NCBI RefSeq assembly: GCF_016097555.1
Contig: NC_054712.1
Location: 35,922,266 to 35,986,265, forward strand
Source: Gigantopelta aegis
Taxonomy: Eukaryota > Mollusca > Gastropoda > Neomphalida > Peltospiridae
Direction of reading: 5' to 3'
DNA length: 64,000 nucleotides
Of the stretch, positions 435 to 62,773 are shown piece by piece. Numbering within the stretch: position 1 is the stretch's first letter; every line of letters begins with the position of its first letter. The position numbers were made by a program, and so were the translations under genes. A model generated the notes under the pieces. That model saw nothing but the letters and a program-made list of their open reading frames with translations. It was not told the DNA's origin and did not search any database.

Positions 435-832
435 AAAAGTAAAGTTTGTTTTATTTAACGACGCCACTAGAGCACATTGATTTTTAATCTTATCATCGGC
501 TATTGGACGTCAAACATATGGTCATTCTGACACTGTTTTTAGAGGAAACCCGCTGTCGCCACATAGGCTACTCTTCTTTACGACAGGCAGCAAGGGATCT
601 TTTATTTGCGCTTCCCACAGGCAGGATAGCACAAACCATGGCCTTTGTTGAACCAGTTATGGATCACTGGTCGGTGCAAGTGGTTTACACCTACCCATTG
701 AGCCTTGCGGAGCACTCACTCAGGGTTTGGAGTCGGTATCTGGATTAAAAATCCCATGCCTCGACTGGGATCCGAACCAAGTACCTACCAGCCTGTAGAC
801 CGATGGCCTGCCACGACGCCACCGAGGCCGGT
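435..832 (-). mobile_element. Chimeric SINE: A head, B tail
   Basis: On the minus strand the head (right side) is the SINE-A tRNA-like unit with a B-box-like GGATCCCAGTCG block. The tail (left side, about 435-520) is the SINE-B tail with the GTCGTTAAA and GATTAATAA-type blocks rather than the A tail. The exact 13-bp duplication CTAATTAATCGAA at 422-434 and 833-845 shows it inserted as one unit. Confidence 0.85.
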
Positions 833-1071
833 CTAATTAATCGAATACAAATTCCTGAAAGATATTGCAGCAATAACTAGTTACTTAGGCTATGCCCATT
901 TGTCAACTTCCTGCATTAGGTTGTCCATGTTTTTAAACAACCACACCCTTTTAAGTACAGGCAATATAACATAGTGCTCATTATAAATTAAATGTTGTCC
1001 GATATCTGCTGTCAGTATACTGGGCGTAACAAGAGAGGAAAAAAAAAACGTTGAAGCAAACCCAGACCCTT

Positions 1072-1174
1072 GGCCCCGTTCCGCGAAGCGATCTTAGTGC
1101 TACGATCACCTTAAGTACATAAGGTAGCTATGTGTTTAAGATTTAGGGCTAAGATCGCTTCGTGGAACGGGGCC
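1072..1174. mobile_element. Short palindromic MITE, 103 bp
   Basis: Arms 1072-1097 and 1149-1174 are inverted copies over 26 bp with one mismatch, starting GGCCCCGTTCC and including GAAGCGATCTTAG. A half-copy of the same arm sits at about 52355-52392. It has no coding capacity, and the superfamily is not resolved. Confidence 0.7.
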
Positions 1175-1176
1175 CT

Positions 1177-2174
1177 GTAAAAAAAATATCAGTGTCATGG
1201 GGAAAATAAAATAAATCGTCTGCCTCATGCTGGCTACGCCATTGGTATAGCATGAGTTCGTTTAAATAATAATAACAATAAATAGTAATAACAATAAATA
1301 ATGAAGTTTGACCCGAGATAAATCGGACCAGTAGGCCTATGGTACAACAATTTGTTATATTGCAAGTAATAAGGAAGTTCTTGTGTTTCCAAAGCCATCC
1401 CTCCTTATATGCGACAGCATTGCCAGTGGTGTGGTATGTAGGTTATCCTATGGCGCTGTTTGATGTTTTCCTTCTTATTTTTTTGTTAATTTTTTTTTTT
1501 TTTTTTATACATTATTTAGCTAATTTAGTTATAGGTCCTTATTATATGCCCCGCCCAACTAAACATACGAAAAAGTAGGCTACCCATTTTAGCTGAAGAC
1601 CTTGTATATTACTGTACCCCGATATTTTGTTAGTAATCCCCCCCCCCCCCCCCCCTTATATTTTACGACGTGTATATATGTGTACGTGTGTTTCTGCGTG
1701 TAGGACTATATGTCTGTGTTTGCGTGTGTATGGTTAGAGTTTAAAATACACATGTAATAAAGATTTTTATAACCTAGTTTAAAAAAAAAAAATTAATAAT
1801 ATATTATAATAAATACACATAATATTATTTCCTGCTTTCACAAATTGTTTAGCCTACTATATAAGGTTTATTTATAAATCAAAACTGAAACAAAACTTGG
1901 CCTGCAAACCAGTAAATATGTCCGCGTTATTGTTCGTCATAATCGAAGTTGTTATCGAGCACGTAGGTCCTACTATGGGTATAAGTTTGAAAATAGACCA
2001 GAACCTGTTTGCTTATAAATGTTTAGTCCGGCTTCAAGGGTGTAGCGCAATTTGCATACTAACTGCTTGTTATTTGTATGGACTGGGGCGGAATGTAGCT
2101 CAGAAAATCTTCTCGGTGGACCCATTCTCCGATTTTATGTACCTCCCCCTCCCCATAAGCGTACGAGACGGGGG

Positions 2175-2205
<31 letters not shown>

Positions 2206-2530
2206 GTGCTGGAGCAAAACCTAAAATCCGGGCAAAAATTATAGAGATATTCAGGGAAAATGTGCTAACCTGAGACCTTTTTACCAGGTATTTCTATCAT
2301 TCTACCCTCAGAATTAGCTAATCCATGTAAAAATGCGGAGTGATTCGTGTGCCACCCTATATAGCTGTTTGGATGTAACGCTAATATGAATAAATGTTAC
2401 TACTCAGATTCGGGCATTTTCGTTTAATTAAGGCAAAAGCCAGCCTCCCCATCCCCCCCCCCCCCCTCCACCATCCCCACCCTACAAAAATGGTAGCCCG
2501 TACGCCTATGATCCCCCACCCCATCCCAAC
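1177..2530. other. AT-rich intergenic DNA with homopolymer tracts
   Basis: I see no gene here. Poly-T (about 1492-1506), poly-C (1640-1656, 2183-2205, about 2452-2466) and short AT-rich runs occur. A SINE-head-like fragment lies near 2088-2160. Open frames through the poly-C tract are low-complexity artefacts. Confidence 0.6.
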
Positions 2531-2830
2531 GAGTTCTCCACGACTGCTATATCAAAGGCCGTGGTAGGGCTTCTGTAGGATAGAACAAGTATAAGATTCT
2601 TTGCTAATAATGGAAACACATTATAGCGGGCTTCTATAGGATAGAACAAGTATAAGATTCTTTGCTGATAATGGAAACACATTATAGCGGGCTTCTGTAA
2701 GATAGAAGAAGTATAAGACTCTTTGCTGATAATGGAAACACATTATAGCGGGCTTCCTTTTAAGACTACGCCTCAGAATGACCAAATGTTCGATTTCCAG
2801 TAGTAACCTGATGATTAAATAATCAATGTT
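2531..2830 (+). mobile_element. SINE-B copy with internal tandem amplification
   Basis: The SINE-B body is recognisable at both ends: CCACGACTGCTATATCAAAGG near 2539, and ACCAAATGTTCGATTTCCAG then a GATGATTAAATAATCAATG tail near 2780-2828. Between them, a segment corresponding to the SINE stretch from the GGGATGGTGCATATAAAAG block to the GTAGCGGGTTTCC block is repeated three times. Confidence 0.7.
2567..2749 (+). repeat. 61-bp tandem repeat, 3 units, inside a SINE
   Basis: Units begin GGGCTTCTRTARGATAGAA at 2567, 2628 and 2689, a constant 61-bp period with very few differences between units. The unit aligns to the middle of SINE-B, so this is a small SINE-seeded minisatellite. Confidence 0.8.
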
Positions 2831-3174
2831 ATTAAAAAAAAAAACTTTACTTTTTGTATATGCAAAACGAAACGCCGCATGTGGTTATCAAAAGTGCATT
2901 CTTCAAATTGCAGGTGTCCTATTTTATTATTCACGAGTACGTATATATGTATTAAATAAGTACACAGTTTTAATGATATTTTCAAAATGAAAAGACCCCT
3001 TGTTATACACCAATGCAAGTAGCCGTTATTTAAATTTACTAAAATGTCATCAGAGAAATATTTGTTTCGTTTCGTTTCCTCCCTCTCCCACTTAGTCAGT
3101 TTGTCTTTAGCCTCTGCGAGTGCTGTTTCTCGTCATAGTGCAGGGGTGGCAACATCCAAATGGTTTTTCCTTGA

Positions 3175-6349: not shown

Positions 6350-7887
6350 TGAACAGCAAAAGAAACGCGAGAAATTAAAATATCGTGTACATGTTGCCCT
6401 TAGCGAAAATTATAATCATAGTTATAAAATAAAACACAAACTCTCGTCTTCTAAGTATTTGTTGGGTTAAGTTAAAACAAAACGCAACACTTTCATATTC
6501 TTTTGCCTATTTCAAATTGCTCGATCAAACACATTTTGCACGTGACTCGTGCATTGCATGCTTTTAATGCAATAAAGAATTACTTTTATTCTTGTAACCT
6601 CGTGTCAATAGAAGCTAAAACAGAATTTATTTTTGTAACTACTCACTTAATCACTTTATTTCAATGCCGCATCTAAGTACAGATGATAGGACTAGAGCAT
6701 TGGGGTGCGTTGAAGCAGTATGGAGCGTGCCAAGAGTTGCATAGCACCTTGGGGTACACCAGTCCACCATCAACAGGCTTTTCAGGCGTCATCAGCAAAC
6801 AAATGTTGTCGCAGATCGACCACGCCGTGGAAGACCGAGGGTAACAACAAACAAGACAGGACAGGTACATTGTGACGTCACATTTACGTAATCGCTTCTT
6901 GCCAGCATCGTCAACGGCACATCAAACCATAGGAATTCACAATAAACCAATAAGCGAACATACAGTGCGACGTCGCCTGAGAAATGCACTTCTTAATACC
7001 CGATGTCCTTACGTTGGTCCAGTATTAACGCGACGTAATCGGGCCCAGGCTCACCGGAATTGGCGGAACAGGCAATGGCAGAACATCGTCTTCTCGGATA
7101 AAAGCAGGTTTTGTGTGCATGTGGCCGATGGTAGAGTCCGTATATGGAGACGTCGAGGTGAACATTTCAGAGATGCTTGCGTTATGGAACTTGACCGCTG
7201 GGTGGTCTATCAGTAATGTTGTGGGGTGCCATTAGTTGGGGACGTCGTATCCCACCTGTCATCTTCCAAAACAACGGTGCAGGTCGTGGTAGAGACATTA
7301 CAGCGAGACGTTACATCGATGAAGTTCTGCAGCCTGTAGTCGTCCCATTCATGGCGGGTCGACGTCAATTGCTGTTCCAGCAAGACAACGCGAGGGCTGA
7401 CACTGCGCGACTCACACAAGATTTCTTAGCACAGAATAACATCCATACCATTGATTGGCCTGCGTTGAGTCCTGATTTAAAGCCAACTGAGCACCTCTGG
7501 GACGAAATTGAACGCAGGATACACCACCGCCATGTGCTGCAAGTAACGTTGCAGGAACTTTGTGATGCCGTCATTTATGAGTATGACAACATTCCTAGAG
7601 CCTTCATACGGAACCTGTTTCTATCTATGGAACGACAATGTGCCGCAGTGATCAACAACAACGGTGGCCACACCCATTACTAACTTTTCGGACCCATTCA
7701 TTAGCGATTTTTAATTAATCCTGGCCCGATAACGACGTTTGCTAATTGAAACAATAAAGTTCATCTACAGACACCTTCGTATTCACATTGGGTTGTTTTC
7801 TGTAATAAAATATCAGGTGAGAAATATCCGTTTAAAATTGGGCATATTTGATGGTAATGTCGCACCTTGCATTTCTTTTGCCGCTTA

Positions 7888-10767: not shown

Positions 10768-11087
10768 TTCTCCAGGTAAGACAAAATGAGCACATTTCTA
10801 AACTAAAATAGATCTCTTTTTTATTCCCTTCCATTTTCTGATAATGCTAATGCCCCACTGACTTCCCTCCCATTTGGTACGACCTTGTATTCTGCTAACT
10901 AATCACAACTGTGGTAATTTTTGGATATGGATTCCCTGTATCCCTATTTACAACAGCGTCATCCGATTTGAAGGCATGTAACAAAATAAAGAAAATACAA
11001 GTTGAATGTTGAAGTTTATTATTTAAAACATAAAATATATGGATCAATTCATTTAGGTTACTAAAGCTTCATTGATAATCAGATATG

Positions 11088-11600
11088 GTCAGGTCAGGTC
11101 ATAGGGCTTAACGTGCACATTCAGAAAGAAAGAAGTGTTTTATTTAACGACGCACTCAACACATTTTATTTACGGTTATATGGCGTCAGACATATGGTTA
11201 AGGACCACACAGATTTTGAGAGGAAACCCGCTGTCGCCACTACATGGGCTACTCTTCCGATTGGCAGCAAGGGATCTTGTATTTGCGCTTCCCACAGGCA
11301 GGATAGCACAAACCATGGCCTTTGTTGAACCAGTTATGGATCACTGGTCGGTGCAAGTGGTTTACACCTACCCATTGGGCCTTGCGGAGCACTCACTCAG
11401 GGTTTGGAGTCGGTATCTGGATTAAAAATCACATGCCTCGACTGGGATCCGAACCCAGTACCTACCAGCCTGTAGACCGATGGCCTGCCACGACGTCACC
11501 GAGGCCGGTATGTGCACATTCAGAGTAAGCTGTTGTAGCGCACGCCTGTCATGGGCGCATGTGCCGACTTAAGCCGGCTCCTTCGTCCAGGACAGAATAT
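11088..11600 (+). repeat. SINE-E repeat, split by a SINE-A insertion
   Basis: The left piece ends GGCTTAACGTGCACATTCAG. After the SINE-A insertion, the right piece restarts at GTGCACATTCAG and continues AGCTGTTGTAGCGCACGCCTG. An uninterrupted copy of the same sequence is at 38130-38250, which confirms the original order. Confidence 0.8.
11125..11511 (-). mobile_element. SINE-A full-length copy
   Basis: The tail is at the left (AAGAAAGAAGTGTTTTATTT) and the tRNA-like head at the right (ATCCGAACCCAGTACCTACC, GAGGCCGGT). The 12-bp duplication GTGCACATTCAG at 11113-11124 and 11512-11523 marks exact insertion into SINE-E. The 96- and 71-residue open frames here are SINE artefacts. Confidence 0.9.
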
Positions 11601-30659: not shown

Positions 30660-31380
30660 AGTACTATAACCCCTACCTCAAAGTATTAACTGAAGAAAAT
30701 GGTACCTTTCATGGTTCGTTTTCGGTATAACCAGATTTTTTTTACAACACTCCTAGTTTCGCACAACTTTTGTTTCAAGCACAAGGCTACTTGACACAGT
30801 GGTACCAGATGAAATAAAACTGCATACATTTTTTGCCCAGATGAAACTAAATTTTTTTACAACCATTACTTACATTTATAACCAATCACAGAATTGGTGG
30901 TGTTAACTTCTCTATCAAAAGTTTGATGCATCTCGAACTTTGAACCAGGCGGAAGTTATTTGGTTTAGTATTATCTTCAAATACAGGGACGCTCACCACT
31001 TGAATATCTGACGAGCAGATACCGTGACGATTATACAGGGACGTATCAGAGGTCAAAGATCAACGGTGAATTGGATTCGTGCGTACTTCGGACGCGTTTG
31101 CCTTTAGGTTATAATAATATAGTTCAGTATATTTTGTGCTGCAGAATGAATGGCAAATTAACTAATTTAAGTTGCGTTTAGTTGTAATTTTGTTTTTATT
31201 TGTGAAGCGATTCTCAAACACTTCCCGGTTCGTGATTAATCGGGAGTTTCATTTTTCGGAACGGCACTGGACTACGGACCAGAGGTGTATATGTGACTAT
31301 TTTAAGGTTATTGTTTTTAAAAGCTAGTTAAAACCATTTAATTTATTTACTTTATATATAAATAAACACATTTTAAAAAC
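30660..31380 (+). promoter_or_regulatory. 5' flank of CPQ copy 1, promoter not resolved
   Basis: No repeat element is recognised here. A TTTATATATAAATAAAC stretch 20-40 bases before the ATG could hold a TATA-like element but may be 5' UTR. The sequence is not clearly alignable to the 5' flank of CPQ copy 2. Confidence 0.3.
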
Positions 31381-32823
31381 ATGACAGCGGCTATTTATAA
31401 AGTATTGTTACTACTGTGTTCAATACAATGCGTTACACAGTCAGTGTTGAGATACCGTAGCTTTCATAATAAGGATGTTTTCCGTGAAATCAAAGACCAC
31501 CGAAACATTGCTGCCGATCTTATTAAACTTTCTGTGGATGGAGCAGCCAAGAACCAATCCTATAATAGACTTGCTGAGTTTGTAGACAAATTTGGATTTC
31601 GAATAGCAGGTTCCAAAAATCTGGAAAATTCCATTGACTACGTCATACAAAAATTGAAGGAAGACGGTTTGGAGAACGTGCATGGAGAAACTGTGATGGT
31701 TCCTCATTGGGTTCGAGGATACGAGTCTGCAAAAATGATTGAACCACGAATTCATCATCTGTCCATGCTCGGTCTAGGAGGAAGTATTGGTACACCTCCA
31801 GAGGGAATCACTGCTGAAGCGTTGGTAGTTGGCTCGTTTGACGAGTTGAAAAAACGGAGTTCTGAAGCCAAAGGGAAAATAATCGTCTTTAACGAGGACT
31901 GGGCTGGATCGTATGGTAAAACAGTAGCCTACAGAAGTGGAGCGGTTCCGGCGTCGAAAGTAGGAGGGGTGGCTTCTTTAATCAGAAGCATCACACCATT
32001 TTCAATAAACAGCCCCCATACCGGATCACAGCACTACAAAGCCAATGTGAAAAAAATTCCAACGGCTTGTATCACTATTGAAGATGCCGAGATGATGGCT
32101 CGAATGGCAGCTAGAGGTGATAAAATAGTCATTCATTTAAAGATGGATGCCAAAACTCACCCAGATGTGAAGTCCAGGAATGTGGTCGCTGAAATTAAAG
32201 GGCGGACTAATCCAGAGGAGGTGGTTGTTGTCAGTGGACATATTGATAGCTGGGATGTTGGACAAGGAGCGATGGATGACGGTTGTGGAGCCTTCATATC
32301 ATGGCAGGCTCTGTCTCTTGTTCATCAACTTGGACTTCGACCTAAGAGGACACTGAGAGCAATATTTTGGACAGCCGAAGAAGAGGGTTTGATTGGTGCA
32401 CATAAATATTTTAATGACCACAAGGGGGACATGTCTAACTTTGATCTTGTAATGGAGTCGGATACTGGAACATTTTCTCCTTCTGGTCTAGGTTTTTCTG
32501 GGAATAAGGCAGCCACGGACATTGTAAGAGCAGCTGTCGATCTTTTGGATCCAATTGGCGCAACGAATTTCTCTACCCAAGCTGATGTCAGCGATGTGGT
32601 ATATTGGCAGGATGCTTCAGTACCCACGGGAAGTCTGTTGGTGGATACCAGCAAGTACTTTTACTTCCACCATTCTAATGGAGATACAATGACTGTACAG
32701 AATTCACACGATATGGATGTGGCGTCCGCCATTTTTGCCGTTGTTGCTTATGTTGTGGCCGACCTCGAGGATATGTTACCAAGGAAACCTACTAACAATA
32801 CAGACATACGGTTGTTTGACTAA
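31381..32823 (+). CDS. CPQ: Carboxypeptidase Q, copy 1 (intronless)
   Basis: 480 residues, close to human CPQ (472). An N-terminal signal peptide (about residues 1-20, KVLLLLCSIQC core) predicts secretion or lysosomal targeting. Residues about 135-265 cover the PA-like insert. The M28 catalytic domain is complete: H287 in SGHIDSWD, D299/D300 in GAMDDGCG, E333/E334 in WTAEEEG, D361 in MESDTG and H430/H431 in YFHHSNGDT, matching the di-zinc ligands and general base of the family. Known family role: a metallodipeptidase that hydrolyses circulating or lysosomal dipeptides. The whole ORF lies in one exon, unlike the multi-exon vertebrate gene, so an ancestral retrocopy or intron loss is likely. 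Its tandem paralogue lies 6 kb downstream on the same strand. Confidence 0.95.
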   Translation: MTAAIYKVLLLLCSIQCVTQSVLRYRSFHNKDVFREIKDHRNIAADLIKLSVDGAAKNQSYNRLAEFVDKFGFRIAGSKNLENSIDYVIQKLKEDGLENVHGETVMVPHWVRGYESAKMIEPRIHHLSMLGLGGSIGTPPEGITAEALVVGSFDELKKRSSEAKGKIIVFNEDWAGSYGKTVAYRSGAVPASKVGGVASLIRSITPFSINSPHTGSQHYKANVKKIPTACITIEDAEMMARMAARGDKIVIHLKMDAKTHPDVKSRNVVAEIKGRTNPEEVVVVSGHIDSWDVGQGAMDDGCGAFISWQALSLVHQLGLRPKRTLRAIFWTAEEEGLIGAHKYFNDHKGDMSNFDLVMESDTGTFSPSGLGFSGNKAATDIVRAAVDLLDPIGATNFSTQADVSDVVYWQDASVPTGSLLVDTSKYFYFHHSNGDTMTVQNSHDMDVASAIFAVVAYVVADLEDMLPRKPTNNTDIRLFD

Positions 32824-33236
32824 TGTATAACATAACGCAGTGGACTTTATTTTGTATATTATTTATATGTTAATATCCTGGGCCCATGTCCAGGTTTGCT
32901 TCACAAAATCATGTATCAGTCCCGATAATATATGCATATGTAACACCTTCTTAACACACACTTGTTTAAAAGGAGAACATTTAAAAATTTAGTTGGAATT
33001 TGTATACTAGAAGACTAATCATTATGTAAATTGTTTTCTTTGTATATTTTGATTAATGCGTATATGATGTGGATAAATGTGTGTATTTTGATATAAACAT
33101 TCCTTAAAGCAATATATGATTCCTGAGTTTTCATTCCTTCTTGCTACTCCATTTAGCAGCACTGGAACGCATTGCATTAATTTCAATTTACTTTCGTTCC
33201 TGTATCCAATTGGTGTTCTAGCACCCCGTCCTGGTT
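32824..33236 (+). other. 3' flank of CPQ copy 1
   Basis: It aligns to the region after CPQ copy 2 (40244-40494, then 41235-41400), with AACGCAGTGGACTT and TTATATGTTAATATCC shared. At about 33050 TTTTGATTAATGCG is the empty site matching the MITE pair in copy 2. Confidence 0.8.
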
Positions 33237-35066
33237 ACAGTGGTTACTTGTTAGTTAATGAGAGAAGGCGGCTTTCTGGGTACCTCAGCTACCAGGGCTC
33301 TGCGTCCAGGACAGTGGTTACTTGTTATCTGTTAGCGGTTAATGAGAGAAGAAGGCTTTCTGGGTGCCTCAGCTACCTGGGCTGTCTGTCTAGGACAGTG
33401 GTTACTGTTAGCGGTTAATGGCAGAGACGAAGGCTTCCGGAGTACCTCAGCTACCTGGGTTGTCTATCTAGGACAGTGTTTACTTGTTATCTGTTAGCGG
33501 TTAATGAGAGAGAAGAAGGCTTTCTGGGTACCTCAGCTACCAGGGCTGTGCGTCTAGGACAGTGGTTAATGACAGAGAAGAAGGCTTTCTGGGTACCTCA
33601 GCTACATGGGCTGTCTGTCCAGGACAGTGGTTACTGTTAGCGGTTAATGAGAGAGAAGAAGGCTTTCTGGGTACCTCAGCTAACTGGGCTGTCTGTCCAG
33701 GACAGTGGTTACTGTTAGCGGTTAATGAGAGAGAAGGCTTTCTGGGTACCTCAGCTACCTGGGCTGTCTGTCCAGGACAGTGGTTACTGTTAGCGGTTAA
33801 TGAGAGAGAAGAAGGCTTTCTGGGTACCTCAGCTACCTGGGCTGTCTGTCCAGGACAGTGGTTACTGTTAGCGGTTAATGAGAGAGAAGAAGGCTTTCTG
33901 GGTACCTCAGCTACCTGGGCTGTCTGTCCAGGACAGTGGTTACTTGTTATCTGTTAGCGGTTAATGAGAGAGAAGAAGGCTTTCTGGGTACCTCAGCTAC
34001 CTGGGCTGTCTGTCCAGGACAGTGGTTACTGTTAGCGGTTAATGAGAGAGAAGAAGGCTTTCTGGGGACCTCAGCTACCTGGGCTGTCTGTCCAGGACAG
34101 TGGTTACTTGTTATCTGTTAGCGGTTAATGAGAGAGAAGAAGGCTTTCTGGGGACCTCAGCTACCAGGGCTCTGCGTCCAGGACAGTGGTTACTTGTTAT
34201 CTGTTAGCGGTTAATGAGAGAAGAAGGCTTTCTGGGTGCCTCAGCTACCTGGGCTGTCTGTCTAGGACAGTGGTTACTGTTAGCGGTTAATGGCAGAGAC
34301 GAAGGCTTCCGGAGTACCTCAGCTACCTGGGTTGTCTATCTAGGACAGTGTTTACTTGTTATCTGTTAGCGGTTAATGAGAGAGAAGAAGGCTTTCTGGG
34401 TACCTCAGCTACCAGGGCTGTGCGTCTAGGACAGTGGTTAATGACAGAGAAGAAGGCTTTCTGGGTACCTCAGCTACATGGGCTGTCTGTCCAGGACAGT
34501 GGTTACTGTTAGCGGTTAATGAGAGAGAAGAAGGCTTTCTGGGTACCTCAGCTAACTGGGCTGTCTGTCCAGGACAGTGGTTACTGTTAGCGGTTAATGA
34601 GAGAGAAGGCTTTCTGGGTACCTCAGCTACCTGGGCTGTCTGTCCAGGACAGTGGTTACTGTTAGCGGTTAATGAGAGAGAAGAAGGCTTTCTGGGTACC
34701 TCAGCTACCTGGGCTGTCTGTCCAGGACAGTGGTTACTGTTAGCGGTTAATGAGAGAGAAGAAGGCTTTCTGGGTACCTCAGCTACCTGGGCTGTCTGTC
34801 CAGGACAGTGGTTACTTGTTATCTGTTAGCGGTTAATGAGAGAGAAGAAGGCTTTCTGGGTACCTCAGCTACCTGGGCTGTCTGTCCAGGACAGTGGTTA
34901 CTGTTAGCGGTTAATGAGAGAGAAGAAGGCTTTCTGGGGACCTCAGCTACCTGGGCTGTCTGTCCAGGACAGTGGTTACTTGTTATCTGTTAGCGGTTAA
35001 TGAGAGAGAAGGAGGCTTTCTGGGTACCTCAGCTACCTGGGCTGTCTGTCCAGGACAGCGTTTAAT
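33237..35066 (+). repeat. About 78-bp minisatellite with 872-bp higher-order repeat
   Basis: The basic unit is about 75-85 bp and contains GGGCTGTCTGTCCAGGACAG and GCGGTTAATGAGAGAGAAG. A block from about 33291 recurs from 34163 at an exact offset of 872 bp with no difference that I noticed until about 35010. The 78-bp units are a multiple of three, so repetitive open frames appear; they are not genes. The unit matches the SINE-D body, and CPQ copy 2 has just one unit at the equivalent place (41430-41490). Confidence 0.95.
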
Positions 35067-35603
35067 GAGAAATAACCAGGCTTTGACGGTACGAATTAAA
35101 AACAAAACGGACCATAAGTGCCCTTATTAGTTGGTTACGTGTTCGATATGTTTTAATATTTCACACTGCATTTCATGCAGTTTGCCAATTTTAAACAACA
35201 GTTCTCTTACTATAATGTGTATAAAAATTCTAAAATTATATCCATTAATTTGCTAGATTTTAGGATACGTATTTATACCCCACGTACCCTTGGAGAGCAG
35301 AAACCCAGAGAAGTCGGTGTAGTGGCCTTACACCCACTCATCCAGTCGTTACAACTCGCTCTGGCTGGGAACAGTATTGGGGTGCGAACCCAGTACCTAC
35401 CATTGGCTTAATCGCTACAAGTCTCAAGAGGTCTGTTTCGTCTTTTGAACCAAATATCGAAGGTTGTTCAATTGGAATTATTTTAAACCTTTCCTCCAAT
35501 GAATGGTCAGGTAGACTGAAGGGATGTCGACGTGATGCCGAATATCATACTTGTGAGAAACTGCTATAATTTTCAGTTGATTTTGCGTTTATCCTACATA
35601 CTG

Positions 35604-35607
<4 letters not shown>
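35067..35607. other. Rest of duplicated CPQ 3' flank, then unassigned
   Basis: 35090-35345 aligns to 41490-41540 plus 41937-42130 (TTAGTTGGTTA, CATGCAGTTTGCCAA, GATTTTAGGATACGT). 35345-35410 ends in a SINE-D-like GTGCGAACCCAGTACCTACC. No gene. Confidence 0.65.
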
Positions 35608-35636
<29 letters not shown>

Positions 35637-35637
35637 C
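35608..35637. repeat. Poly-A tract
   Basis: About 30 A on the plus strand, at the downstream border of the Penelope-like element. Confidence 0.9.
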
Positions 35638-38100
35638 ACCATCAATTACAGGTGATTAGATATACTACAATTTTTAATCACAGTTCAAATCTGTCCGAAT
35701 TTAAAATTCAATCTTGGTCTGCTGAATTTTTAAAGTCGTCTGCGTTTGAAGTAGGTTGTGGAGTCTACACCTAGTTTTGTTACAAGTAGCTGAAGAACCA
35801 GTGCTTATCTGGGGTAGTTGGTAATGTTGAAGTTTGTATGGTTTATAGGCTTCAGTTGCACTTAGGGGGTTTTCTAATTCTCGAAAAGTTTTAGATTTTT
35901 TAAAACAGTGTTGAATATCCTCTAGGCTTTAAAGCACTAAATAAAAGTGAATAAGCCTCATTGAAATTCTGTTTTTTTACCCGAATATCTGTGAAATCTA
36001 ATAATCTGACATTTAAGCATGCCTTTAAGTGTATGGCGTGGGTGAAACGACTTGTAGTGGAAAAGATGGTGTGTGTGTCTGTAGGTTTGAAAAATACTTT
36101 GCAATCTAGATGACGTGATGTTTCAAACTGTGTACCTTTATAAATTGTTACATCCCAAAAGTGAACTGATTTATCAGATATTGTGACGTTATTCTTGTTC
36201 ATTTAATAGCTCAAAAAAGTTACAAAATTCTTGTTTGGAATGTGGCCAAATAATAAGATATCTGAGGTACAAATGGGGTGTTTTACTTGATTTCTTTAAA
36301 GCAGCCTCTTCCCATTCGGCAACATAGACTGATGCAAAATTTCGACTAAAACGTTTGCCCATAGCATAATCACACACCTACTGATACATTCCTCCATCAA
36401 ACAACTCAAAATCGTTTCCTTTTAGGATTAATTCTAACAGCTCAATAATGTTTTATCTGGTCTGTCTGGATCTGGGGCCTGGCTGTCTTAACCGAATCAA
36501 TGCCCGCATCATTACCTATGTTGGTGTACATGGAGTCAATATCAAGTATAGGCCTAATCAAAACTGAATCGTGTGTCATTTTGGAGAGTTTTTTTGGGGA
36601 TAAATTTGATAGTCAGTGTGTGTGTGTGTGTGTGGGAGGGGGGGGAGGGGGGTTACAAAACTTTCGTGTCTATTTGCAATTGGTTTTAAGTGAAAGTCTA
36701 TATATTCCGAACTATTGCATGATTCTGATCCACAATCTGAAATGACTGGACGACCGGGTGGTGTGTTAATATCGGTCCATGTATTGATTGGCTTGTGAAT
36801 TTTTAGAAGTATATAACATTTCCGGGTTTGTCATTGCGACTTGGCTTCTAAATATTTTACTTGCTTTTTATTAATATGTCCTTAATCCTTTAGACATTGA
36901 ATAATTACATTGCACTGTTTACAATTTGCAGGCCAAATAGCTTTGTCTAATGTTTTGTAGTACTTTTAATTATTAAGCTCCCTGGATATATTTCTTCATT
37001 GATAGAATGACTGTGGCTGACACCTTAGTTCAAGGGTAACCAGCCGGAGATTTCCGTGAATGGGATTTTTTCTCCAGTTGAATGTCGAAAACAGTCCGCC
37101 AGGTTTTTATTTTTTATTTGTTGTTTTTTTGTGGGTTTTTTTTTTTTGGGGGGGGGGTCAAAAACTGGCGTATCGATTACATCATTGTCAGGTTTAGCCT
37201 CTAAGGCTGTTGTTAGTTGGTGTGTGTCTGTGAGGTGGGTGGGTGCGAAATTCAGACCCTTGTCCAGTAATGATTTATTTTAGCGGATGTTAAAAGGTTA
37301 GTGTCACCAGTTATGTTAACAATGTTAGTTCCTAATCCTAAATCAGGGGGTGGACATTATCCTTTCACGGCCATAGTTTAAATTTAAGTACCTCATCCAA
37401 CTGCGGTAAAGTTTATTGGCAGTTGTTTCTGTCCAGTGAATGTTGTCCTGCTCAACCTCAAAATCACATGCGGGAAGCGCAGGTATAATTTTGATGTCCC
37501 TCATTATTTTTGCTGCCAAATTTATTTGGATGAGGCAGGTTTTCTGATTAGCCTGTCCAAAAAGTTCAACTCGATAAAAATTAATTTGACCTAGGGAATC
37601 GTTTTTGAATCTAGCTGATCATATTTCACAACTGATTTATTGCACTGGTTGGATTTAGATCTTTTGAATTGATACCAATGTTAAGAACAATAATTTCAGG
37701 TTGGGACTTGCCCTTATAATTTTAGTCCATGGTCCGAAAGTGGTTGGTTGGAATTGGCCCCTGGGTAGCATTCTACTTATTTTAGGGAGATTTGATGATC
37801 CAAGGAGAAGAGGGTTTTTGTTCTTAATTTCAGGAAGGCGCCATTGTGATTTGTCCGAAACTTGTGCCGAAATTGATTGATATTAGTTTCCCGAACGTTT
37901 TTATCCTGCCCTGAGTTGCGTCAACAAAAGAAGCTCCCGGATTGGGAACTGCGCTACTCTTGGTGCGTGAGTTAGATGGGATAGGTGGGATGGGTGGTGA
38001 CGTAGGTCGTGGTGTTAGGTGAGTGCAGTGAACCGTCTGGCAATGGTCCATACCATACGGTCGGGACGTTTGGAAGGGTTTTGTTGACAACAAAAAGGAT
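35608..38100 (-). mobile_element. Decayed Penelope-like retroelement
   Basis: The element lies on the minus strand and is broken in several places. In order along the element: LLLGSSNLP (about 37780-37820), IIVLNIGINSKD (about 37660-37703), DNIHWT (about 37430-37455), LLDKGLNFAPT (about 37236-37268), then reverse-transcriptase blocks IHKPINTW, PPGRPVISDCGSES (about 36735-36805), MGKRFSRNFASVYVAEWE (about 36315-36368) and VFFKPTDTHT (about 36080-36110). The KPTDTH and GRP.VSDCGSES blocks are typical of Penelope-like RT. A Cys-containing linker (ATCNKTRC, about 35770-35800) follows, but no full GIY-YIG endonuclease was seen before the A-tract at 35608. The upstream blocks look like a SGNH hydrolase. 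Confidence 0.75.
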
Positions 38101-38129
38101 AAATGTTTTGGGCCTCAAGTAGTGAGGTG

Positions 38130-38255
38130 TACTGACAGGTCAGGGCAGGTCAAGTCATAAGGCTTAACGTGCACATTCAGAGCAAGCTGTTGTAGCGCAC
38201 GCCTGTCATGGGCGCAGGTGTCGACTTCCTTTGTTCAGGACAGGAAAGGGCACTG
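38130..38255 (+). repeat. SINE-E repeat, uninterrupted copy
   Basis: GGCTTAACGTGCACATTCAG runs directly into AGCAAGCTGTTGTAGCGCAC, giving the uninterrupted order that the copy at 11088-11600 lacks. Confidence 0.75.
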
Positions 38256-38806
38256 CCTCCCCTCACGGTTCCATAATGGATTTTTAAAAAATGTATTATG
38301 AATAGCTGTTATTGAAACATATTTACTCCTAGTCCCCCCCCCCCCCCCCCCCAATCCCCGCACATACACATGTGATCATTTCTGAAACACTCTTACTTCA
38401 GCTTAATAGTAGTCGTGCTTATATCTATAGATACAGACCAGTGGAGTTGATTTTAATCGGATTAGTGTCGCACGAAAGGCGAGAAGAGGTTCAAAGGTTC
38501 TCTATCTTACAAACGCTGGGCTTCTGTAGCCAAATACAATCAAAGTTCACTATATGTAATTTATTATTACTTTAAGAAGAACATTTTAGTTACTGTTTTC
38601 AGCTGTGACTTTTTATTGGTGTTGTCATTCTCAGACACTCGCTGTTTTGTACAAGATACAGCAGAGTTCTTCCCTCTGTTCAGTAGTGACAACTGATTAG
38701 GGTTGTGTATGGGATTGTTAATCTCAACAATCTTTAAACCAATCGAAGGTTTGTTGTTTGTTGTTTTCTTTATTTCTGAACGAGATAAGAAACAAAGAAA
38801 TACATA
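38256..38806 (+). promoter_or_regulatory. 5' flank of CPQ copy 2, promoter not resolved
   Basis: A poly-C tract (38335-38352) and otherwise unique sequence. No convincing core promoter element. The 5' flank does not clearly align with that of copy 1, so the duplicate may have a different promoter. Confidence 0.3.
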
Positions 38807-40243
38807 ATGGAATCTCTTCTAAAGGTATTGTTGCTACTGGTTTCGTTACAATGTGTTTCGCAATCGGTATTAAGATATCAAAGCTTTCATAAGGATGTTT
38901 TCCGTGAAATAAAAAACCACCGAAAAATTGCTGCTGATCTTATTAAACTTTCTGTGGATGGAGCAGCCAAGAACCAATCCTATAATAGACTTGCTGAGTT
39001 TGTAGACACATTTGGATTCCGAATAGCAGGTTCCAAAAATCTGGAAAATTCCATTGACTACGTCATACAAAAATTGAAGGAAGACGGTTTGGAGAACGTG
39101 CATGGAGAAACTGTGATGGTTCCTCATTGGGTTCGAGGATACGAGTCTGCAAAAATGATTGAACCACGAATTCATCCTCTGTCCATGCTCGGTCTAGGTG
39201 GAAGTATTGGTACACCTCCAGAGGGAATCACTGCTGAAGCGTTAGTAGTCCGCTCGTTTGACGAGTTGAAAAAACGGAGTTCTGAAGCCAAAGGGAAAAT
39301 AATCGTCTTTAACGAGGACTGGGCCGGGGCTTATTATAAAACAGTTCCCTATAGAGATGGAGCAGTTCAGGCATCAGAAGTAGGAGGAGTGGCTTCTTTA
39401 ATCAGAAGCATCACACCATTTTCAATAAACAGCCCCCATACGGGAATACAGGATTACAATGCTACTGTGAAAAAGATTCCAACGGCTTGTATCACTATTG
39501 AAGATGCCGAGATGATGGCTCGAATGGCAGCTAGAGGTGACAAAATAGTCATTCATTTAAAGATGGATGCCAAAACTAACCCAGATGTGGAGTCCAGGAA
39601 TTTGGTCGCTGAAATTAAGGGGCGGACTAATCCAGAGGAGGTTGTTGTTGTCAGTGGACATATTGATAGCTGGGATGTTGGACAAGGAGCGATGGATGAC
39701 GGTTGTGGAGCCTTCATATCATGGCAGGCTCTGTCTCTTGTTCATCAACTTGGACTTCGACCCAAGCGGACACTGAGAGCAATATTTTGGACAGCTGAAG
39801 AACAAGGTTCGATTGGTGCATATAAATATTTTAATGACCACAAGAGTGATCTTTCTAACTATGATCTGGTAATGGAATCAGACACTGGAACTTTATCTCC
39901 TTCCGGACTAAGGTTTTCTGGGAATGAGGCAGCCACAGAAATTGTAAGAGCAGTTGTCGATCTTTTGGATCCAATTGGCGCTACTAATTTGACAACCCGA
40001 GTTGATGTCAGTGATATAGTGTATTGGCAGAATGCTTTAGTACCCACGGGAAGTCTGTTTGTGGATGCTAGCAAGTACTTTTACTTCCACCATTCTAATG
40101 GAGATACAATGACTGTACAGAATTCACACGATATGGATGTGGCGTCCGCTATTTTTGCTGTTGTCGCTTATGTTGTGGCCGACCTCGAGGATATGTTACC
40201 AAGGAAACCTTCTAACACTACAGACATACGATTGTCTGACTAA
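38807..40243 (+). CDS. CPQ: Carboxypeptidase Q, copy 2 (intronless)
   Basis: 478 residues, beginning MESLLKVLLLLVSLQC, a typical signal peptide that is diverged from copy 1. All catalytic blocks are retained (SGHIDSWD, GAMDDGCG, WTAEEQG, MESDTG, YFHHSNGDT), so it should be an active M28 dipeptidase. Nucleotide identity to copy 1 is uneven: about 97% over the stretch equivalent to 38920-39265, about 77% around 39320-39400, and high again after 40075. That mosaic suggests gene conversion. Substitutions concentrate around the PA-like/linker part and residues about 330-410. Tandem orientation and shared 3' flanks show local segmental duplication. Different 5' flanks leave room for different expression. 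Confidence 0.95.
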   Translation: MESLLKVLLLLVSLQCVSQSVLRYQSFHKDVFREIKNHRKIAADLIKLSVDGAAKNQSYNRLAEFVDTFGFRIAGSKNLENSIDYVIQKLKEDGLENVHGETVMVPHWVRGYESAKMIEPRIHPLSMLGLGGSIGTPPEGITAEALVVRSFDELKKRSSEAKGKIIVFNEDWAGAYYKTVPYRDGAVQASEVGGVASLIRSITPFSINSPHTGIQDYNATVKKIPTACITIEDAEMMARMAARGDKIVIHLKMDAKTNPDVESRNLVAEIKGRTNPEEVVVVSGHIDSWDVGQGAMDDGCGAFISWQALSLVHQLGLRPKRTLRAIFWTAEEQGSIGAYKYFNDHKSDLSNYDLVMESDTGTLSPSGLRFSGNEAATEIVRAVVDLLDPIGATNLTTRVDVSDIVYWQNALVPTGSLFVDASKYFYFHHSNGDTMTVQNSHDMDVASAIFAVVAYVVADLEDMLPRKPSNTTDIRLSD

Positions 40244-61163: not shown

Positions 61164-62773
61164 TATACTACTCAAAAGAATTTAAGGGTCAAAAATTTAT
61201 AACCAAATAAGTTTCATAGTGTATTAGATTGATGATGTAAACTACACCAAAATTTTTATTTATTGTTCCATATTTACAAAAATCCACAAATAAACGTCAC
61301 TGTATACAAGAAAGTCACATGACATGCTGTCAAAGTTGAAGGTTGTCAAACATGGATTTTACACATTAGAACATTCGTTTAATAGTGTGTGAATCCACCC
61401 CTGGCGCGAATACACTCGACACATCGTTGCCTCATGCTGTTGATCAGACGTCTGAAGAACTCTTGGGGAATGGCCTGCCACTCTGCCATAAGAAGTTGAC
61501 CCAGATCATGAAGGTTGGCCGGAGGGTGCATGGTTATCCCAAACTCTCCTGCCTAATTCGTCCCAGGCGTACTCTATTGGGGCCAAGTCAGGCGAATATG
61601 CTGGCCAATCCATCCTGGCGATATCTTGTTGTCTGAGAAAGTCCGTTACCACCCTGGCGCGGTGGGGTCTGGCATTGTCATCCTGCAGAACTGCCCCGCC
61701 GCCAATCTACTGAAGGCCTGGGAGAACCAACGGCCAGATAATCTCATTCAGATAGCGGATTCCATTCAGATTACCATCCACCACATAGAGGGGGGTCCTG
61801 TGGTGGATAGAGATGCCGCCCCACACCATGACGCTGCCACCACCGAACCGGTGACGTTGTCTAACGTTAACGTCAGCGAAGCGCTCCCCAGGACGTCTGT
61901 AGAGACGAACCCGACCGTCGTTGAACTGGAGACTAAACCTGAACTCATCAGTGATCATCACTCGACCCCACTGAACACGTTGCCACCGCAGATGAAGCGT
62001 GCACCAGTGACGTCTGGTCGTTCTGTGACGTGGTAGGAGTGGTGGTCGAACAGCCTGGCGATGCCAGCGTAGATTATTGGCTCTCAGACGATTGCGTATG
62101 GTTTGATCAGACACTCGAGTTCCAGTCGCAGTCCGCAGATTGCCACGTAATCGGCGTGCAGTGGTTGTGCGTTGACGTAGAGCCATATTGGTGATGTAGC
62201 GGTCCTCTCTATTTGTAGTGCTTCGGGGTCTTCCCGAACGTGGACGATTTCGAACAGAATTCGTTGCTTGGTACTGTTGCCACAGTCGGCCAACGACACG
62301 CTGACTGACACCAAGTCTCAGAGCAACATTTCTTTGCGTATTGCCATCCTGAAGCCAAGCAATAGCCCTTCCTCGATCTTCGATAGTCAGTTGAAGTCGT
62401 ACCATTGTCGAATTTGGAGTGTGCACCGTACACGAACGCAAGCTCCAATTATACGGAAATTTAGCATTGGGAACATGGAATACACGTGCAAAGCGTGCAA
62501 ATGAAGCGCTTTGTGAAAAAGCAAGTTATGGACACTTAGCAGACCTTTCGCTTTCGCCCTAATTTACGTGCAAATGTAAGCATGTTTTCGCCATTAGAAC
62601 TAGTCGACAGTGTCAATGACAGTGGATTTTAATTCATTTATGGGTTGCTTAGACCCACTTTCGTCAAAATGGAACAATACCATGCGTGACATTATGGTCT
62701 AGCTAATATAATTGACATTCAGAAAATAATGTCGAAAATATCGTCTGACCCTTAAATTCTTTTGAGTAGTATA
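61164..62773 (-). mobile_element. Tc1/mariner transposon, 1.6 kb
   Basis: Perfect inverted repeats of 28 bp including the TA target lie at 61164-61191 and 62746-62773 (TACTACTCAAAAGAA outward end). It encodes a DD34E transposase on the minus strand with only two disruptions. Perfect TIRs and light decay indicate a fairly young insertion. Confidence 0.95.
61379..62405 (-). pseudogene. Tc1-type DD34E transposase, two lesions
   Basis: It starts at the ATG at 62405 (MVRLQLTIEDRGRAIAWLQD) and should end at the TAA at 61379-61381, about 340 codons, normal for Tc1. Paired helix-turn-helix: NVALRLGVSQRVVGRLWQQY, a GRPRSTT AT-hook-like linker, then a second HTH ending in VSDQTIRNRL. Catalytic residues: D in MITDEFRFSL, D in LQDDNARPHRA, E in LAPIEYAWDEL, with 34 residues between the last two. 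A single TAG stop at 61707-61709 lies just before the second Asp, and a one-base shift near 61520-61535 precedes the C-terminal GGFTHY. The HTH frame is otherwise open. Confidence 0.9.

Follow-up and report, generated by a model that had tools for sequence, protein, structure and literature searches.

According to Schneider et al. (2013, PMC3905857), the Penelope-like elements (PLEs) catalogued in RepBase include some with SGNH esterases. The same source names two residues, H191 and S228, whose conservation is confined to transposon esterases. In bdelloid rotifers, Athena PLEs also contain GDSL/SGNH open reading frames (ORFs) (Rodriguez et al. 2017, PMC5408684). The Athena and Terminon PLEs with GDSL ORFs are endonuclease-deficient, and Terminons extend up to 40 kb and hold many ORFs (PMC5408684; review PMC6431247). 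Nontelomeric PLEs bear a hammerhead ribozyme motif in their terminal repeats (PMC6431247), and the canonical endonuclease-containing Penelope consists of a single ORF (Arkhipova et al. 2013, PMC3846280). In the excerpted part of PMC7599744, SGNH is mentioned only in a reference on a Helitron-captured gene. Searches of the open-licence literature returned no paper on Penelope-like elements with Naiad and Coprina, and none on frameshifting or slippery sites in PLEs.

The window examined here, a 64,000-nucleotide stretch of the genome of the gastropod Gigantopelta aegis, contains on its minus strand a copy, now dead, of an SGNH-bearing PLE that is young and present in multiple copies. The original prediction had read SGNH-hydrolase-like motifs upstream of a Penelope-like reverse transcriptase (RT) as a possibly undescribed architecture. 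The union of both parts in one element is borne out by other copies in the genome, as detailed below; the novelty is not, the SGNH-bearing PLE architecture being already known (PMC3905857, PMC5408684). What is unreported for PLEs, as far as searched, is an arrangement of two ORFs in a −1 relation at UUUAAAC.

LINEs differ from PLEs in the class of their RT and in their endonuclease. With the CR1/L2 LINEs that have an SGNH ORF1, exemplified by ZfL2-1 (PMC3905857), the window family shares a two-ORF layout, an esterase in ORF1 and a similar catalytic spacing, whereas H191 of ZfL2-1 is replaced by Asn. The RepBase SGNH-bearing PLEs resemble it in having an SGNH esterase with its active-site residues kept in an ORF1-type PLE protein; the transposon esterases described there have H191, in contrast to the Asn (N323) of the window family, and the excerpts of that paper contain no mention of a frameshift junction for these PLEs, whereas the window family has a candidate junction of this kind (PMC3905857). 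Athena and Terminons likewise combine a PLE RT with a GDSL/SGNH ORF, but, as far as the excerpted sources describe them, they differ from the window family, whose element is about 4 kb long, has a GIY-YIG domain and closes its ORF1 with the SGNH domain. Penelope, Poseidon and Neptune (PMC3846280, excerpts) show the same RT and GIY-YIG combination, 5′ truncation and partial tandem copies; unlike the single-ORF Penelope, the window family adds an SGNH ORF1, mostly in another frame.

The Decayed Copy in the Window

The features of the window copy are listed below. L019 is another copy from the same genome, used as the reference for alignment, and L001 is an unrelated metagenome-bin contig from a GTDB scan that carries an RT tail and a GIY-YIG domain in two overlapping ORFs and was used as an outgroup.

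35418..38078, minus strand: decayed, 5′-truncated SGNH-bearing PLE, delimited by alignment to other genome copies
37787..37807, minus strand: SGNH block I remnant LLGSSNL (GSSNL starts at 37801)
37753..37767, minus strand: SGNH block II remnant YPGAN, between blocks I and III
37659..37682, minus strand: SGNH block III remnant NIGINSKD
37433..37447, minus strand: SGNH block V remnant DNIHW, with the catalytic Asp and His
37376..37385, minus strand: junction AAATTTAAAC at the ORF1/ORF2 boundary, where the −1 slippery heptamers AAATTTA and TTTAAAC overlap
37238..37330, minus strand: N-terminal part of ORF2 (NITGDTNLLTSA..LDKGLNFAPT region), by alignment to L019 ORF2
35900..36990, minus strand: RT remnant, by tblastn with L001 and alignment to L019
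36803, 36755, 36531, 36365, 36160 and 36088, minus strand: RT blocks KIHKP, GRPVISD, MYTNI, AMGKRF, FWDVT and KPTDTH, respectively
35418..35690, minus strand: GIY-YIG endonuclease remnant (VVYLITC, QYVG, HKYDI), broken by a homopolymer run, by alignment to L019

The domain order is thus SGNH blocks I, II, III and V, followed by the PLE RT blocks and the GIY-YIG remnants. The original prediction had named GSSNL, GINSKD and DNIHW, and all three are present on the minus strand in the proper order, starting at 37801, 37682 (as NIGINSKD) and 37447; the RT blocks that it placed after them follow on the same strand, from KIHKP to KPTDTH, within a region of PLE RT blocks running from 37255 to 35900. 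Block II, the GIY-YIG part and the change of frame between ORF1 and ORF2 were absent from that prediction.

Relative to L019, the window copy has 85% identity (K2P 0.169), and 15 of its 18 gaps, ends included, are not multiples of three. Since the copy is decayed and carries indels, its SGNH motifs are split over different frames. It lacks 26 nt that L019 has between blocks I and II, and the YLDD catalytic motif of its RT has been lost through a 12-nt gap. The L001 protein matches the window at 36109-35912 (tblastn, E 5e-9), the matching part being the RT tail, and the GIY-YIG part of L001 gave no match to the decayed copy. Pfam searches with whole frames and with separate pieces of the window copy found no SGNH, RT or GIY-YIG model, and blastn found no second copy of the element within the window. 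Ordered and spaced triples of blocks I, III and V occurred once in the window, at this copy, compared with none in 1000 dinucleotide-shuffled windows, the motif definitions having been fixed post hoc, after the hit was seen.

Copies Elsewhere in the Genome

When 40 of the 2747 candidates from a DNA search of the same genome (1.149 Gb) were scored, they gave 86 matches; grouped by hand, these fall into 40 places, 39 of them with RT sequence. The original prediction had proposed collecting better-preserved copies and would have been refuted had the SGNH-like part never adjoined the RT in them. Such copies were obtained, and this was not the case: a whole or partial SGNH region lies directly upstream of the RT on the same strand in 22 of the 39 RT-bearing scored places, the window included. 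The other 17 have no SGNH region directly upstream; one of them (C5:40284691) has a fragment of it nearby on the opposite strand. C1138 is the sole scored place with the SGNH side alone.

Twenty stretches were fetched from the genome (L016-L035). SGNH blocks stand beside the RT in L016-L030, partially so in L029 and L030, and the SGNH-less L031-L035 begin within ORF2, at L019 positions 4347, 4662, 4520, 4520 and 4444, respectively, start points that fit 5′ truncation. All SGNH blocks are found in one uninterrupted frame in six copies (L018, L019, L020, L021, L022 and L025). In L019, a 784-aa RT/GIY-YIG frame comes after the SGNH open frame, which ends in RYLNLN-stop. Partial tandem copies occur in L020 and L022, 5′-truncated copies are also present, and copies damaged in both frames are common among the fetched loci.

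A protein search with the RT tail of L001 yielded 562 candidates, of which 150 were scored, and all of these matched. Open frames of 784-785 aa occur in 12 of the 150 scored places; among these 12, L019 was read completely and L045 partially. Ten places out of the 150, picked as more divergent or oddly framed, all proved to be of the same family (87-100% DNA identity), and no second family for comparison was found among the genome copies examined. A hammerhead ribozyme is not taken here as a requirement of every PLE; Rfam found no such family in the window or in L019, L020, L022 and L025, these four copies giving microRNA-type and other sub-threshold matches alone and the window nothing relevant.

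ORF1 and Its SGNH-like Domain

The ORF1 of L020 starts with MARKNATNTG, is 452 aa long and ends in RYLNLN-stop; its 5′ region is also present in L017, L018, L022, L023, L024, L025, L026 and L030. The protein starts with an N-terminal part and continues through a proline-rich linker to a C-terminal domain that appears to be SGNH-like. Its catalytic residues S278, G298, N327, D404 and H407 (L019 numbering; blocks I, II, III and V) are invariant in all six aligned ORF1 copies, with a spacing of 20/29/77/3, close to the 22/30/84/3 of the structurally solved ZfL2-1 esterase, the latter derived from residue numbers in the excerpts of PMC3905857. Four residues before the catalytic Asn, where counting back places H191 of ZfL2-1, the family has an Asn (N323). 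Counting likewise places ZfL2-1 position 228 at E360, with S364 close by.

The profile searches that the original prediction had proposed for better-preserved copies gave weak SGNH matches. Lipase_GDSL_2 (PF13472) was the top-ranked or only Pfam model in the four ORF1 copies scanned (E 0.06-0.12), with scores of 13-14 bits that fall below the curated cut-off of 32.9 bits in all four; the RT matches of ORF2, given below, also remained under their curated cut-offs. No Pfam family matched the N-terminal region of ORF1, NCBIfam returned nothing for the SGNH domain, and searches of PDB sequences with window pieces and the intact SGNH domain found no esterase. Because the Pfam scores are below cut-off and PDB and NCBIfam gave nothing, the SGNH assignment rests on the residues, their order and spacing, and the weak profile match.

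ORF2: Reverse Transcriptase and GIY-YIG Endonuclease

ORF2 is predicted from its sequence to encode a PLE-type RT with a C-terminal GIY-YIG endonuclease. The 784-aa ORF2 of L019 matched the RT model NF041746 (E 4.3e-6) and the GIY-YIG models TIGR01453 (E 0.0017) and PF01541 (E 0.066), each below its cut-off. Its match to the L001 RT tail reached E 2e-26, and residues 597-714 matched the L001 GIY-YIG ORF at E 1e-18, an ORF that itself carries a Pfam GIY-YIG domain (E 8e-8). The assignment to PLEs draws on the RT motifs KIHKP, GRPIISD, YTNI, AMGKRF, YLDD and KPTDTH, which we take to be characteristic of these elements.

In L001, binned as Saprospiraceae, the PLE RT tail and GIY-YIG occupy 1217-2114 on the minus strand, near bacterial-looking genes (coaBC-like by eye), and may reflect a chimera, contamination or transfer. 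Scans of IMG/VR for PLE and SGNH patterns gave no relative; none of six pattern hits was an SGNH domain by eye.

The ORF1/ORF2 Junction

The ORF1 stop is directly preceded by AAATTTAAAC, a sequence that comprises two −1 slippery heptamers. The end of ORF1 reads TTA AAT TTA AAC TAA, so that AAATTTA and TTTAAAC are both in frame with ORF1 and lie close ahead of its stop. SGNH block V and the N terminus of ORF2 are both readable in 19 genome copies. ORF2 has the −1 phase relative to ORF1 in 14 of these; it is in phase in the first copy of L022, in L025 and in L029, and in +1 in L026 and L040. When aligned to L019 across the junction, the first copy of L022, L025, L026 and L029 show gaps or insertions.

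TTTAAAC is kept in all 17 junction rows of L016-L030 and in the five further loci that reach the junction (22 of 22), although the young copies are nearly identical and their shared junction is thus close to a single observation. TAA follows it in 16 of the 17 junction rows, L029 having a 5-nt gap there, and the window copy also keeps TTTAAAC, followed by TAT. By codon resampling, an overlap of this kind would contain some canonical heptamer by chance in about 6% of cases, and TTTAAAC itself in 0.3%; further slippery heptamers are present elsewhere in ORF1. The first ATG in the ORF2 frame lies 62 codons downstream of the slip site, and two ATGs in another frame stand between them. Nested RNA structure downstream of the slip site was not significant (z +1.12; equal or better folding in 173 of 200 shuffles).

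Coding Constraint

Both ORF1 and ORF2 appear, from their variant patterns, to have been under past coding constraint, since shared variants favor third codon positions. Among variants common to three or more copies, those in ORF2 are distributed over codon positions 1/2/3 as 10/9/26 (26 of 45 third; p 0.0007) and those in ORF1 as 4/0/7 (7 of 11 third; p 0.04), in tests that treat variants as independent. The stretch from the slip site to the first ATG in the ORF2 frame has three shared variants alone (1/0/2), too few for testing. Differences between the window copy and L019 are distributed as 23/32/40 in ORF1 and 83/95/122 in ORF2 (chi-square p 0.002).

Proposed Expression Strategy and Alternative Explanations

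The window feature is probably the dead remnant of a PLE that was recently active, is present in multiple copies, and whose SGNH-bearing ORF1 and RT-GIY-YIG ORF2 would be joined into a fusion by a −1 slip at UUUAAAC. Most ribosomes would stop at the end of ORF1 and release the esterase protein alone, while a minority would slip back one base at UUUAAAC and produce an ORF1-RT-endonuclease fusion. The ORF1 protein could package or route the RNA-protein particle, with its esterase acting on lipids or on acetyl/acyl groups, an activity that has been suggested for the ORF1 esterases of LINEs. Nicking of the target, and copying of the RNA at that site, would fall to the GIY-YIG/RT part; this would leave 5′-truncated copies such as those seen.

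The alternatives concern how ORF2 is reached and whether the two parts belong together at all. It is rather unlikely, in our judgment, that ORF2 is translated on its own, through re-initiation or an internal start at the methionine found 62 codons into its frame. An in-frame ATG does exist at that position, and the lack of a supported downstream RNA structure speaks for such a route, but initiation there would lose the LTSAEKSLLDRGLNFVPT stretch of ORF2, which we take to be conserved in PLE reverse transcriptases. The two other-frame ATGs between the slip site and the methionine also speak against it, and it leaves unexplained a tandem slippery site abutting the stop, where any canonical heptamer is expected by chance in about 6% of cases. 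The frame change could instead be an old mutation in one master copy, so that ORF2 would not be made through it, all copies having moved in trans. The near-identity of young copies at the junction, the frequency of copies with both frames damaged and the few copies in other phases are in keeping with this; the ORF2-length open frame kept in 12 of 150 scored places, the constraint that shared variants show on ORF2 and the persistence of TTTAAAC in the window copy, about 15% diverged, argue against it, and it is unlikely.

A chance juxtaposition of SGNH-like motifs and a PLE draws on the weak or absent Pfam SGNH scores. It is rejected as vanishingly improbable in view of the shuffled windows, the 22 of 39 places with SGNH upstream of the RT and the six copies with all blocks in one uninterrupted frame.

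For the −1 frameshift reading, the family would on balance represent an endonuclease-containing PLE lineage with a retrovirus-like organization, in which the SGNH ORF1 takes the Gag position and ORF2 is reached only via the −1 frameshift at UUUAAAC, the product being a fusion of esterase, RT and endonuclease. Lacking the His reported as common to transposon esterases, the esterase may have been captured separately. If true, an esterase ORF1 linked by frameshifting to the polymerase would bring a Gag/Gag-Pol-like product ratio to endonuclease-containing PLEs, and this link would make both the production and dosage of PLE polymerase and the role of retrotransposon esterases accessible to testing.

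Sequence Context of the Copies

Several copies (L018, L020, L021 and L024-L027) lie in or adjoin a CATA-rich minisatellite whose period is about 317 bp, and in L019 such stretches occupy 564-3098 and 6933-7831 in element orientation. This association may reflect an insertion preference of the element. At L033 and L034 (G000:C7:41759613-41773320), four 5′-truncated copies are spaced at about 4.16 kb in an amplified segment.

In the window, two tandem M28 peptidase paralogues on the plus strand (31366-32823 and 38789-40243; Peptidase_M28 E 7e-32 and 1e-28), presumably carboxypeptidase Q-like, bracket a satellite array and the PLE copy. The array has a unit of about 78 bp (AGCGGTTAATGAGAGAGAAGAAGG...), and a search of 34000-38800 placed 13 copies of it at 34034-35069; judging from the open frames at 33092-33957, the array starts earlier, likely from about 33100. 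Just upstream of the PLE copy, at 38143-38227, stretches of 39 and 59 bp match 11087-11125 and 11512-11570, which flank a type of ORF (YMASDIW...) found several times in the window; the upstream segment could be a short mobile element that has undergone an internal deletion. Fragments of Tc1/mariner-type transposases are located at 6845-7683 on the plus strand and 61707-62525 on the minus strand, with HTH_Tnp_Tc3_2 matches in 6845-7213 (E 5e-6) and 61710-62525 (E 5e-12).
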